From positions 310,001 to 374,000 of the forward strand of contig NZ_RKLO01000002.1 in assembly GCF_004011825.1 (NCBI RefSeq): a stretch of 64,000 nucleotides of DNA, given 5' to 3'. The notes beneath the pieces are model-generated. The model made no database searches. It saw nothing but the letters and a program-made list of their open reading frames with translations, and was not told where the DNA came from. This document shows, one piece after another, positions 7,662 through 15,104 of the stretch. Each line of letters starts with the position of its first letter. Within the stretch, counting starts at the first letter, position 1. Origin of the DNA: Rhodococcus xishaensis (lineage in GTDB: Bacteria > Actinomycetota > Actinomycetes > Mycobacteriales > Mycobacteriaceae). The position numbers and the translations under genes were made by a program.

Positions 7662-9194
7662 TCACCCTCGAACCCGTGGCTGCCGGTACGTTGCCCGCAG
7701 GCTCCTCTTGACGAGCTTGCCCATGGCGTTGCGTCCCAGATCGTCCCGGAACTCGATCGTTCGTGGCACCTTGTAACCAGCCAATGCGGTGCGGCAATGC
7801 CCGACCAGGTCGGCCACTGTCGGGATCTGTCGGTGCGGCACCACCAGCGCCACAACCGACTCGCCCATGTCCTCATCGGGCACACCGATCACCGCGACGT
7901 CGGCAACGTCGGGGTGGGTGACGAGGACCTTCTCGATCTCGGCGGGATAGATGTTCACACCGCCCGAGATGATCATGTCGGTCTCACGGTCGGTGATGAA
8001 CACGAAACCGTCGTCGTCGACGTATCCGATGTCTCCGAGTGTGAACATCCCTGGGCGTATCAGCGCCTCGGAGGTTTTCTGTGCGGCGCCCAGGTAGGTG
8101 ACCGATCGGCCGTCTCGTTCCTCGAACGCCAGCCTCCCCTCGGCACCTGTCGGTAGTTCGTTCCCGTCGGCGTCCACGGCGACCGCGCGTACGAACGGCG
8201 CCCGTACCCTCCCGACGCTGCCGGGTCGCCGCAGCCACTCGGCGGTCGAGATCCCGCACAGTGGGCCGGTTTCGCTGCCCCCGTACGAATCGAACAGCAC
8301 CGGTCCGAACCAGTCGATCATCGCTCGTTTGACGTTATGTGGGCACGCCGCGCCGGTGTGTGTGACCAGCTGCAGTGACCCGACGTCGTAGCGGGCGCGC
8401 GCGTCGTCGGGCAGCGACAGCAGGCGGCGGAAGTGTGTCGGCACCATCAGCGACGTCGTGATGCGGTACCGATCGATCGTCGCGAGCACCGTCTCGGCGT
8501 CGAATCTCTCGAGCACGGTGACTGGCATCGCGCACGCGAGGAGGCGCACACCGGCGAGAGGGCCGGTGTGGTGGAGCGGGCCGACCACGAGATGCCCCGG
8601 CCACTGCGCGAGGGGTAGTGCACGCATCGAGCGCACGTACTCGTCCACCGTCGAACCGGGAGAGGGGCTGCCCGCAAGTGCGTTGACGCCCTTGGGGGTT
8701 CCTGTTGTGCCGGACGTGTAGCACAGGAACGGCAGAGCAGGGGCGTCGGACGGCGGGTCGTCCGCGGAGGCGGCGTCGAGCCACTCGTCCCACGCGATGA
8801 CCCCGTCGGCCTCGCCGCGCCAGCCGACCACGAGCGGCACCCCGGCCAGTTGCGCCGCCTGCGCGCCGACGGCGGCGTTCTCCGGACCGACGAACAGGGC
8901 CGCGGCGCCCGAGTTCTCGAGGATGTACGCGAGCTCAGGTGCCGTCAGATGAAAGCTTGCCGGCACCGGGGAGCAGCCGGCGAAGATGATTCCCACGTGC
9001 GCGAGGATCGTCTCCGCCGAGTTGCGTGCGAACACCGCGACCCGTCGGTGGGGGCCGAGGTCCAATTCCCGCAGCGCATTCGCAACCCGATTCACGATGC
9101 TGTCGACGTCGGTCCACGACATCTCGACGCTGCTGTCCCGCAGGGCCACCTCGTTGGGTGCTTCGAGGGCGCGGTCGCGGTGGACGGTCGCCAC
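7662..9194 (-). CDS. AMP-dependent acyl-CoA synthetase/ligase (FadD-like)
   Basis: A 510-residue adenylate-forming enzyme, the usual length for medium or long-chain acyl-CoA ligases. Core motifs: the P-loop YTSGTTGTPKGV (~159-170), the A5 motif YGGSETG, the hinge GDIGYVDDDGFVFITDRETD with the following SGGVNIYPAEIE, and the C-terminal catalytic lysine in NAMGKLVKR. It should activate a carboxylic acid as acyl-AMP and transfer it to CoA; the chain or ring substrate cannot be read from sequence. The GTG start at 9194 has GGGAGG six bases upstream. It stands alone on the minus strand between the AI-2E gene and aspS. Confidence 0.88.
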   Translation of the reverse strand: MATVHRDRALEAPNEVALRDSSVEMSWTDVDSIVNRVANALRELDLGPHRRVAVFARNSAETILAHVGIIFAGCSPVPASFHLTAPELAYILENSGAAALFVGPENAAVGAQAAQLAGVPLVVGWRGEADGVIAWDEWLDAASADDPPSDAPALPFLCYTSGTTGTPKGVNALAGSPSPGSTVDEYVRSMRALPLAQWPGHLVVGPLHHTGPLAGVRLLACAMPVTVLERFDAETVLATIDRYRITTSLMVPTHFRRLLSLPDDARARYDVGSLQLVTHTGAACPHNVKRAMIDWFGPVLFDSYGGSETGPLCGISTAEWLRRPGSVGRVRAPFVRAVAVDADGNELPTGAEGRLAFEERDGRSVTYLGAAQKTSEALIRPGMFTLGDIGYVDDDGFVFITDRETDMIISGGVNIYPAEIEKVLVTHPDVADVAVIGVPDEDMGESVVALVVPHRQIPTVADLVGHCRTALAGYKVPRTIEFRDDLGRNAMGKLVKRSLRATYRQPRVRG

Positions 9195-12706: not shown

Positions 12707-13381
12707 GTGGATGGCACGACCGGCAACCTGAGGCTGCGGGAGGTGGCCTCCAGGGGGCCGGTTCTCGCGGTCGTAGCGCATCCCGATGATGAGAGCTTCG
12801 GCCTCGGGGCGATTCTTGCGTCGCTCGCGTCCGAGGGCGCTGAGGTGCGCGTGCTGTGCCTGACCCGCGGTGAGGCCAGCACGCTCGGCGCGGCGGTAGA
12901 CCTCGCCCAGGTGCGGCGTGGCGAACTGGTCGCGGCAGCCGACCTGTTGGGCGTCCGCGATGTCGTTCTCCTCGACCATCCCGACGGTGGTCTGAACGAG
13001 GTCGATCCGGCGATCCTGGACGCGGCGGTGCTCGATGTGCTCGGTGCAGCGGCGACTCTGGTGGTATTCGAGGTCAATGGGGTCACCGGGCATCCGGATC
13101 ATCGTGCCGCTACAGCGGCCGCGTTCCGCGTTGCGGCGGATCAGGGTCTGAACGTGGTCGAGTGGGGTGTCGCCCCCACGGTCGCGGATTCACTGAATGC
13201 CGAGTTGGGCACCGAGTTCGCCGGGCTCGATGGCGAGGGTGCCGTTGACGTCGACGTGGACCGGAAGGTGCAATCCGAGGCCATCGCGTGTCACGAAAGT
13301 CAGGCCACGGACAATCCCGTACTGCTGCGGCGGCTCGAACTCTCCGGATCGGTAGACCGCATCAGAATTCGCCGCGCGTGA
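12707..13381 (+). CDS. PIG-L family (LmbE-like) N-acetylglucosamine deacetylase
   Basis: A 224-residue zinc deacetylase of the PIG-L/LmbE family. The zinc motif is AHPDDES (~26-32), and the second zinc-binding site is GHPDHRA (~129-135). The family removes acetyl groups from GlcNAc-linked molecules; in actinobacteria it includes MshB (mycothiol synthesis) and Mca, but this protein is shorter than both (~300 residues), so neither name is assigned. GTG 12707 follows GAAGGGAG at about 12693-12700. It is followed by a separately regulated cysteine-rich small gene. Confidence 0.85.
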   Translation: MDGTTGNLRLREVASRGPVLAVVAHPDDESFGLGAILASLASEGAEVRVLCLTRGEASTLGAAVDLAQVRRGELVAAADLLGVRDVVLLDHPDGGLNEVDPAILDAAVLDVLGAAATLVVFEVNGVTGHPDHRAATAAAFRVAADQGLNVVEWGVAPTVADSLNAELGTEFAGLDGEGAVDVDVDRKVQSEAIACHESQATDNPVLLRRLELSGSVDRIRIRRA

Positions 13382-13449
13382 GCGGTCTGAAAGACGGTGC
13401 ACCCTGCTATGAATCGACCCCGGCGACAGGGCGAGTTGATCTTGAAGAT

Positions 13450-13465
13450 ATACCCAGGTGGGTAT
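13450..13465. promoter_or_regulatory. CsoR/RicR-like operator ATACCCAGGTGGGTAT overlapping a promoter
   Basis: ATACCC-AGGT-GGGTAT is a near-perfect palindrome whose arms resemble the binding sites of CsoR-family metal or sulfur sensors (including RicR in mycobacteria, TACCC...GGGTA). TATGAT at 13463-13468 is a good -10 hexamer and overlaps the right arm. Possible -35 boxes are TTGATC (13436-13441) and TTGAAG (13442-13447). The first codon of the cysteine-rich gene lies 39 bases downstream. Confidence 0.55.
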
Positions 13466-13504
13466 GATCGAGCATCCTGCAAGCCATCCCCGAGGAGACA
13501 TCCC

Positions 13505-13633
13505 GTGTGCTACCCCGTCACCTGCCGAGTCTGTTCCAAAACCACCTGGGAAGGCTGCGGGCAGCACATCGACGACGTCATGCGGGCGGTGCGAACCGCG
13601 GACCGGTGCAAGTGCGAGCAACCGGCGCGCTGA
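13505..13633 (+). CDS. 42-residue cysteine-rich small protein, putative metal-binding
   Basis: A small protein with six cysteines (2, 7, 10, 18, 35, 37) and one histidine, arranged as a compact metal-binding knuckle: MCYPVTCRVCSKTTWEGCGQ near the start and RCKCE near the end. Proteins starting MCYPVTC recur in actinobacteria as uncharacterised genes (recalled, not searched). The GTG start at 13505 has GAGGAG at 13492-13497 at ideal spacing. A CsoR/RicR-like palindrome overlaps the promoter, so copper, other soft metals or sulfur species may induce it; a MymT-like metallothionein role is possible. It is too short to be found by length filters. Confidence 0.72.
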   Translation: MCYPVTCRVCSKTTWEGCGQHIDDVMRAVRTADRCKCEQPAR

Positions 13634-13694
13634 GCTCGCGGTGAGCGCAGCTCGTTCCGTCGAACCAGTCGGTGGCGGCTAGTAGCGTCGAGGC

Positions 13695-15104
13695 GTGACT
13701 GATTTCTTCGGCGACACGGACACCGCGGACGAGTCGGCGGGCCTGTTCGAGGCACCGGCCGCCGAATCCGAGCCCGAGCCGCTCACGTCGGTGACGCGTC
13801 ACGCACCGACAACGAACGCCGGCGCACCTCTCGCGGTCCGTATGCGGCCGACGACGCTCTCGGAAGTGGTCGGCCAGCAGCACCTGCTGGGGCCGGGCAC
13901 TCCGCTTCGGCGTCTTGTCGAGGGCTCGGGAGCGTCTTCGGTGCTGCTCTACGGGCCGCCCGGGACAGGCAAGACGACCCTGGCGTCGCTGATCTCCGGC
14001 GCCACCGGCCGCAAGTTCGAGGCGCTGTCCGCGCTGTCGGCCGGTGTCAAGGAAGTGCGCGGCGTTATCGAGTTAGCTCGGCGGCGGCTGCTTCAGGGCG
14101 AACAGACCGTGCTGTTCATCGACGAGGTCCACCGATTCTCCAAGACCCAGCAGGACGCGTTGCTCGCCGCAGTCGAGAATCGCATAGTGCTGCTCGTCGC
14201 GGCGACCACCGAGAACCCGTCATTCTCGGTGGTCTCACCGCTGCTGTCGCGGTCTCTGGTGTTGCAGCTGCAGTCGCTCACGGGCGACGACATACGACTG
14301 CTCATCGAGCGCGCCCGCCTTGACGAGCGTGGCCTCGGTGGGTCCATCGAGATAGCTGACGACGCGTTCGAGCATCTCGTCCGGCTCGCCGCCGGTGACG
14401 CGCGTCGAGCGTTGACGGCGCTCGAGGCAGCGGCCGGGACCGCCCTCGACCGGACCGACGAGCGTCCCGCGATCCTCGACCTCGAGACCGTCGAGTCCAG
14501 CGTCGACAAGGCGGCCGTGCGCTACGACCGGGACGGCGACCAGCACTACGACGTGATCAGTGCGTTCATCAAGTCGATCCGCGGTTCGGACGTCGACGCT
14601 GCACTGCACTACCTCGCGCGGATGATCACTGCGGGAGAGGATCCCCGCTTCATAGCCCGTCGTCTCGTCGTGCACGCCAGCGAGGACATCGGCATGGCCG
14701 ACCCGACGGCGCTGCAGACCGCGACCGCTGCCGCGCAGGCGGTCCAGCTAATCGGTATGCCCGAGGCGCGACTCGCCTTAGCGCAGGCCACGATCCACCT
14801 CGCGACCGCGCCCAAGTCGGGCGCCGTCATCGCTGCGTTGGGCGCCGCGATGGCCGATGTCGCGGCCGGCAACTCCGGGCTGGTGCCGGCGCATCTGCGG
14901 GATGGCCACTACGCGGGCGCCGCGCAACTCGGCAATGCGGTCGGCTACCAGTATCCCCACGACCATCCGGATGGCATACTGCCGCAACAGTATCCGCCGG
15001 ACGAACTCGTCGGAGTCGACTACTACCAGCCGACCACTCACGGCTCGGAGCGGGAGCTGGCCGGCCGGGTACCGAAGCTGCGCCGGATCGTCCGCGGCGG
15101 TTGA
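13695..15104 (+). CDS. rarA: Replication-associated recombination protein A (RarA/MgsA-type AAA+ ATPase)
   Basis: A 469-residue AAA+ ATPase of the RarA/Mgs1/WRNIP1 family, acting at stalled replication forks. The Walker A is GPPGTGKTT (~87-95) and the Walker B/box is [19 protein letters not shown]. Sensor 1 ([12 protein letters not shown]) and the C-terminal RarA domain with [10 protein letters not shown] are present. There is an ~45-residue N-terminal extension rich in Asp/Glu ([16 protein letters not shown]), and the motif SAGVKEVR is intact. The start is a GTG at 13695. It is the likely counterpart of Rv2559c and precedes the degenerate AraC gene and alaS. Confidence 0.93.

Follow-up and report, generated by a model that had tools for sequence, protein, structure and literature searches.

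A putative CstR-type operator precedes a small cysteine-rich protein gene

In the window, the 64-kb stretch of Rhodococcus xishaensis DNA analysed here, a gene for a 42-residue cysteine-rich protein lies behind a palindrome with the spacing found at CstR genes. We consider it probable that this gene belongs to the regulon of a CstR-type persulfide sensor and encodes a zinc-binding protein of the persulfide response; the regulatory assignment to CstR, taken by itself, is very likely. As the Cys-rich protein stands behind a persulfide-type and not a copper-type switch, it may be a component of sulfide/persulfide defence that has been overlooked, and would add a recurrent, conserved component to the actinobacterial defence against sulfide and reactive sulfur. 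CstR regulons are already known; the small protein as a recurrent member of them was not found in our searches of open-licence papers, and it is in this sense that we call it undescribed.

The palindrome ATACCCAGGTGGGTAT (ATACCC-AGGT-GGGTAT; 13450-13465, assigned to neither strand) has the form TAC-N8-GTA and is a putative CstR-type operator. It overlaps a putative -10 hexamer, TATGAT (13463-13468, + strand), and the 16-bp palindrome lies 39 bp upstream of a GTG start codon (13505-13507), which a Shine-Dalgarno-like GAGGAG (13492-13497, + strand) precedes by 7 nt. The open reading frame (13505-13633, + strand), recognised as a gene by its homologues, ends in TGA and its product, MCYPVTCRVCSKTTWEGCGQHIDDVMRAVRTADRCKCEQPAR, contains six Cys and one His. 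On all these points the direct sequence agrees with the original prediction. The pattern ATACC-N6-GGTAT occurs once in the 64-kb window and in none of 100 dinucleotide shuffles. A strict sigma-70 scan of 13380-13700 found no promoter, so that the -10 in this genome is read from TATGAT only. The 5′ neighbour of the small gene is a PIG-L gene and the 3′ neighbour a gene for a RarA/MgsA-type AAA ATPase, and no sulfide or persulfide genes adjoin it at this locus.

The small protein was found in all 14 genus genomes (a set that includes records of Prescottella defluvii and Rhodococcus hoagii), in 15 copies. The CsoR-family-type operator that the original prediction had placed before the gene is retained throughout, with a TACC-N6-GGTA core upstream of 15/15 copies. 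This core palindrome ends 34-55 bp before the start codon and mostly reads TACCCCTGGGGGTA or TACCCCAGGGGGTA; in L009 the outermost base pair is asymmetrical. Judged by eye, GAGGAG precedes the start in all 15 upstream stretches, and a TTG hexamer stands ~16 nt before the -10 position in nine of them (L010-L018). When the 15 loci (~3 kb each) were searched by tblastn for the PIG-L and RarA neighbours, seven had both, seven had one and one had neither. The small gene does not lie beside cstR in the genus.

Operator spacing separates CstR-type from copper-type genes in the genus

At the Pfam cut-off, the 3.7-Mb source genome has two genes of the CsoR family. The first, on contig C1, encodes a protein with C35-x28-C64 and with Gly at the place of the copper-CsoR His, and is of the CstR type. 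The second, on C18, encodes a protein with the copper His and adjoins an HMA-domain CopZ-like gene. CstR, with C-x28-C and without the copper His, is thus encoded in the genome itself (L023:7855-8121), and all 14 genus genomes have a CstR. Within 250 nt upstream, a TAC-N8-GTA site (N8) was found at 15/15 CstR genes of the genus, whereas 15/15 copper-type CsoR genes have a TAC-N9-GTA site (N9), that of the source genome being 15 bp long. One spacer base therefore separates persulfide-sensor genes from copper-sensor genes in the genus, and the small gene has N8 at all 15 copies, which does not match the copper-type spacing.

The original prediction had suggested that the gene could be metal- or sulfur-responsive. 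The sulfur part gains support from the N8 spacing shared with the CstR genes, whereas the N9 spacing at csoR speaks against copper. The copper reading takes the small protein for a metallothionein or chaperone that responds to copper through CsoR/RicR, and we regard it as improbable. MymT is a small Cys-rich copper protein that mycobacteria control by RicR, and the original prediction had drawn the parallel to it. The two systems share a repressor superfamily, a similar G-tract palindrome resembling CsoR sites and a small Cys-rich product. In addition, N8 is not exclusive to sulfur sensors, since one P-type ATPase gene of the genus (in G008) has both an N8 site and, next to it, an N9 site upstream. 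In S. coelicolor, a CsoR that responds to sulfane sulfur is reported to bind ATACCn6GGTAT and to leave it when polysulfide is present; the sites from which this consensus was derived included a copper CsoR site of Geobacillus and a RicR site of M. tuberculosis (PMC7533328). For this reason the N8/N9 rule is firm within the genus and only suggestive outside it. In M. tuberculosis, H2S is reported to induce genes of both the CsoR and the RicR copper regulon, so that the two signals cross-talk (PMC6987094). On the other side, the sole copper-type CsoR gene of the source genome has the longer spacer, and TACX9GTA is given as common to the copper CsoR operators of S. lividans (PMC3902906). The ligand spacing of the small protein is also fixed and a hairpin-helix fold is predicted. 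Searches of Pfam and NCBIfam gave no match to a metallothionein family. The parallel with RicR and MymT was set aside on the operator spacing in the genus, the residues of the regulators and the neighbours, the last two of which are described below.

The operator fronts persulfide-handling genes

The pattern TACCCN4GGGTA has five sites in the source genome and its reversed control four, so the count alone is not above chance. The five sites front the small gene, a gene for a CoA-disulfide-reductase-rhodanese (CoADR-rhodanese), the CstR-like gene, a gene for a Pyr_redox_2 flavoprotein, which we read as SQR-like, and one for a YgaP-like (DUF2892) protein. In the 14 genus genomes, the 16-bp N8 pattern gave 51 sites compared to two for the reversed pattern, and the N9 pattern gave 18 compared to none. 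From these 51 sites, 36 N8 loci were examined; they front CoADR-rhodanese (14), DUF2892 (12), the small gene (four), cstR (one) or none of these (five). At seven of the 12 DUF2892 loci a weak rhodanese-like match precedes the DUF2892 gene. The remaining five consist of three sites without the G-tract, L178 before a P-type ATPase gene, and L176, which has no explanation. Among the 15 N9 loci are P-type ATPase, CopZ-like, CsoR and MFS genes, and also some sites that lack a G-tract (Pfam matches for four ORFs). We read the P-type ATPase at the N9 site as copper-linked from its His-rich start.

Some individual loci show further features. At L178 (G008; 1987-2017) the N9 and N8 palindromes before the P-type ATPase gene share two bases, so that this gene might be controlled by both sensors. 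N9 sites lie near MFS transporter genes at L156, L159 and L160 (three genus genomes, with Pfam matches on two), possibly those of a copper-regulated efflux pump. In the source genome CoADR-rhodanese and cstR are separated by an MMPL transporter gene (L023:5600-7765), and cstR is followed by a DUF302 gene (8173-8559); in some relatives MMPL and DUF302 genes are again present near the small gene.

Many relatives beyond the genus carry the small gene near sulfur-linked genes

A scan of public genomes returned at least 558 related stretches. The best 80 of these, all with actinobacterial titles, were used as named loci; they were chosen by motif and not at random, and three of them (L027-L029) come from three genomes that are also in the genus set. 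In a sample of the phylum, homologues were found in 51 of 396 genomes, of which 48 are strong-hit genomes after three weak matches (E about 1e-3) were dropped. Together this gave 115 homologues, or 114 distinct proteins with one occurring twice.

The original prediction had asked whether the palindrome is conserved in relatives. Beyond the 15/15 copies in the genus, N8 was found within 150 nt of the gene for 49 of the 114 distinct proteins outside the source genome (shuffles: mean 0.11, maximum 2). Of other spacers, N7 occurred at two of the 114, and N5, N6, N9, N10 and N11 at none. By set, N8 was present at 42 of 86 named-locus genes and at only seven of the 29 phylum-sample genes. In control windows placed 300-2700 nt upstream, N8 occurred in 49 of 1565 cases (3%) compared to 49/115 next to the gene, and we read the sites in the control windows as other operators of the same islands. 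The small gene also occurs inside multi-gene operons and on plasmids. Following same-strand ORFs upstream from all 115 genes reached N8 in 74 cases, N7 in three, and N6 and N9 in one each. The 41 genes without N8 are made up of 24 negatives and 17 walks cut by the end of the locus.

CsoR-family genes of the CstR type were found in 52 of the 80 named loci (55 genes), and 29 of the 55 lie less than 1 kb from the small gene. All 55 products have C-x28-C and Ala, Gly, Ser or Ile at the place of the copper His; none is a copper CsoR by best match and none has the copper His. The nearest upstream ORFs (66 scanned of 83) matched rhodanese (26), MBL fold (16) and the CsoR family (10), and pyridine-nucleotide-disulfide reductase is also among the upstream families. 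The nearest downstream ORFs (70 scanned of 82) matched TauE (eight) and the CsoR family (six). These neighbours were taken by a crude rule, from which genus loci, spurious-looking ORFs, ORFs of second copies and some others were dropped by hand. Among the 20 upstream families and the first 25 of 47 downstream families, no copper family and no zinc-transport or zinc-regulator family was found. An example is plasmid pRHL3 of R. jostii RHA1, where the small gene is annotated as 'hypothetical protein' and is surrounded by a sulfur island of MBL-fold, trxA, rhodanese, MMPL, CsoR-family, DUF2892, DUF302 and TauE genes.

In the phylum sample, where a CstR-like gene is defined by an E<=1e-20 match alone and not by a residue check, such a gene was present in 29 of 48 strong-hit genomes compared to 49 of 348 genomes without a strong hit (Fisher 2e-11, with no correction for kinship). 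The two genes are less than 5 kb apart in 20 of these 29 genomes. At the same threshold, 19 of the 48 strong-hit genomes have no recognisable CstR, and in 12 of these 19 no sulfur-linked Pfam match was found near the small gene (loci of ~3 kb; 28 of 31 ORFs). In such genomes, either another sensor may be used or the protein may have a wider role from which it was recruited to the CstR regulon.

The small protein is a predicted zinc-binding module

That the small Cys-rich protein is conserved but undescribed, as originally predicted, is borne out by the 51 phylum genomes with homologues and by the library searches: no family in Pfam, NCBIfam, PADLOC or PHROGs matched the window's protein, and no convincing relative was found among PDB sequences. 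Nine residues are invariant in the 115 homologues: C2, C7, C10, W15, G17, C18, G19, H21 and C35. This invariance is partly built in, because some of these residues belong to the motifs by which the 80 named loci were selected; the phylum sample was collected by profile. Six potential metal ligands are thus invariant, and the seventh is Cys or His: its place is CxC in 56 homologues, CxGH in 55 and C..H with longer spacing in four, so that 59 of 115 have His instead of the last Cys. Cys/His swaps are typical of metal ligands. The swap suggests a structured metal site and not the metallothionein that was originally considered.

A chance ORF, or a leader peptide with a purely regulatory role, would agree with the short frame and the GTG start. 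Against this stand the nine invariant residues, although the named loci were picked by motif, and the homologues inside multi-gene operons and on plasmids, and we regard its probability as close to negligible.

The AlphaFold model, of moderate confidence (mean pLDDT 76.9, pTM 0.39), has strands at 3-6 and 13-16, with C7xxC10 on the hairpin between them, and a helix at 19-28; the model of a second, longer protein is similar. The structure alignment covers 54 of the 85 distinct named-locus proteins and the window's protein. A hairpin with CxxC followed by a helix is the treble-clef layout. We therefore predict that the small protein is probably a zinc-binding, treble-clef-like module formed by the C7xxC10 hairpin and C18xxH21 at the start of the helix, with C2, C35 and C37-or-His probably forming a further ligand set. 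In this model it would resemble small treble-clef and zinc-ribbon proteins in its CxxC and CxxH motifs and in the hairpin followed by a helix, but unlike them it matches no Pfam or NCBIfam family and has no convincing match among PDB sequences.

Proposed role in the persulfide response

The closest known systems are the CstR regulons, represented by the cst operon of S. aureus and the ScCsoR circuit of S. coelicolor. As far as the available part of the description goes, they share with the present system a two-Cys CsoR-family repressor, an ATACC-N6-GGTAT operator and persulfide-handling genes, but what is described there includes no small Cys-rich protein, which is a recurrent target here (PMC7533328). 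We infer that the regulator of the small gene is the CsoR-family repressor with two Cys and without the copper-binding His that is encoded elsewhere in the genome. When no reactive sulfur is present, CstR would sit on the TAC-N8-GTA palindrome over the -10 and block transcription. Persulfides or polysulfides formed from sulfide would modify its two Cys, and CstR would leave the operator. The small protein would then be made together with the CoADR-rhodanese, DUF2892, SQR-like and CstR products.

Two roles are conceivable for the induced protein, and each is held tentatively. As a zinc-thiolate partner it may accept, buffer or hand on the sulfur of persulfides; alternatively it may protect zinc sites during sulfide stress. 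The second role is considered because S. aureus exposed to sulfide is reported to show a zinc-limitation response (PMC5480029). A rival reading is a zinc-homeostasis protein, induced by CstR as sulfide makes zinc scarce, that carries or stores zinc and does not handle sulfur. The seven conserved potential ligands with their Cys/His swap agree with this reading, as does the S. aureus response, and genomes that have the protein without a recognisable CstR fit a more general role. The lack of zinc-transport and zinc-regulator families among the neighbour families searched weighs against it, and we consider it possible though not probable.

A redox-active thiol protein without bound metal, acting as a sulfur carrier or as the partner of a persulfide reductase, would explain the six Cys and the rhodanese, MBL-fold and pyridine-nucleotide-disulfide reductase neighbours, with trxA in the R. 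jostii island. However, more than half of the homologues have His in place of the last Cys, which is easier to reconcile with a metal ligand than with a catalytic thiol, and this explanation is unlikely. Returning to zinc-thiolate chemistry, we speculate that the small proteins could form a new family that carries or buffers persulfide by way of zinc thiolates, an idea that we rate as somewhat doubtful. In it, the CstR-induced mini-protein would receive sulfane sulfur from thiol persulfides and deliver it to the enzymes encoded nearby (rhodanese, MBL-fold dioxygenase-like and CoA-disulfide-reductase), and metal release would be part of the chemistry.

Variant copies of the small protein

A C-terminal tail like GFFxxLFGR, a loose pattern, is absent from the window's copy and its closest relative, L009, and was found in 74 of the 115 homologues. 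One homologue (L221:6001-6162) lies on an unverified, unannotated contig from human faeces that is labelled as phage (MT835623.1), and which may be mislabelled bacterial DNA. In five Microbacterium records (L044, L050, L065, L075 and L082) a second copy, shorter than the main one, lies 2-3.2 kb upstream of it; in this second copy GKATW replaces GKTTW, and it has its own N8 site in four of the five records.
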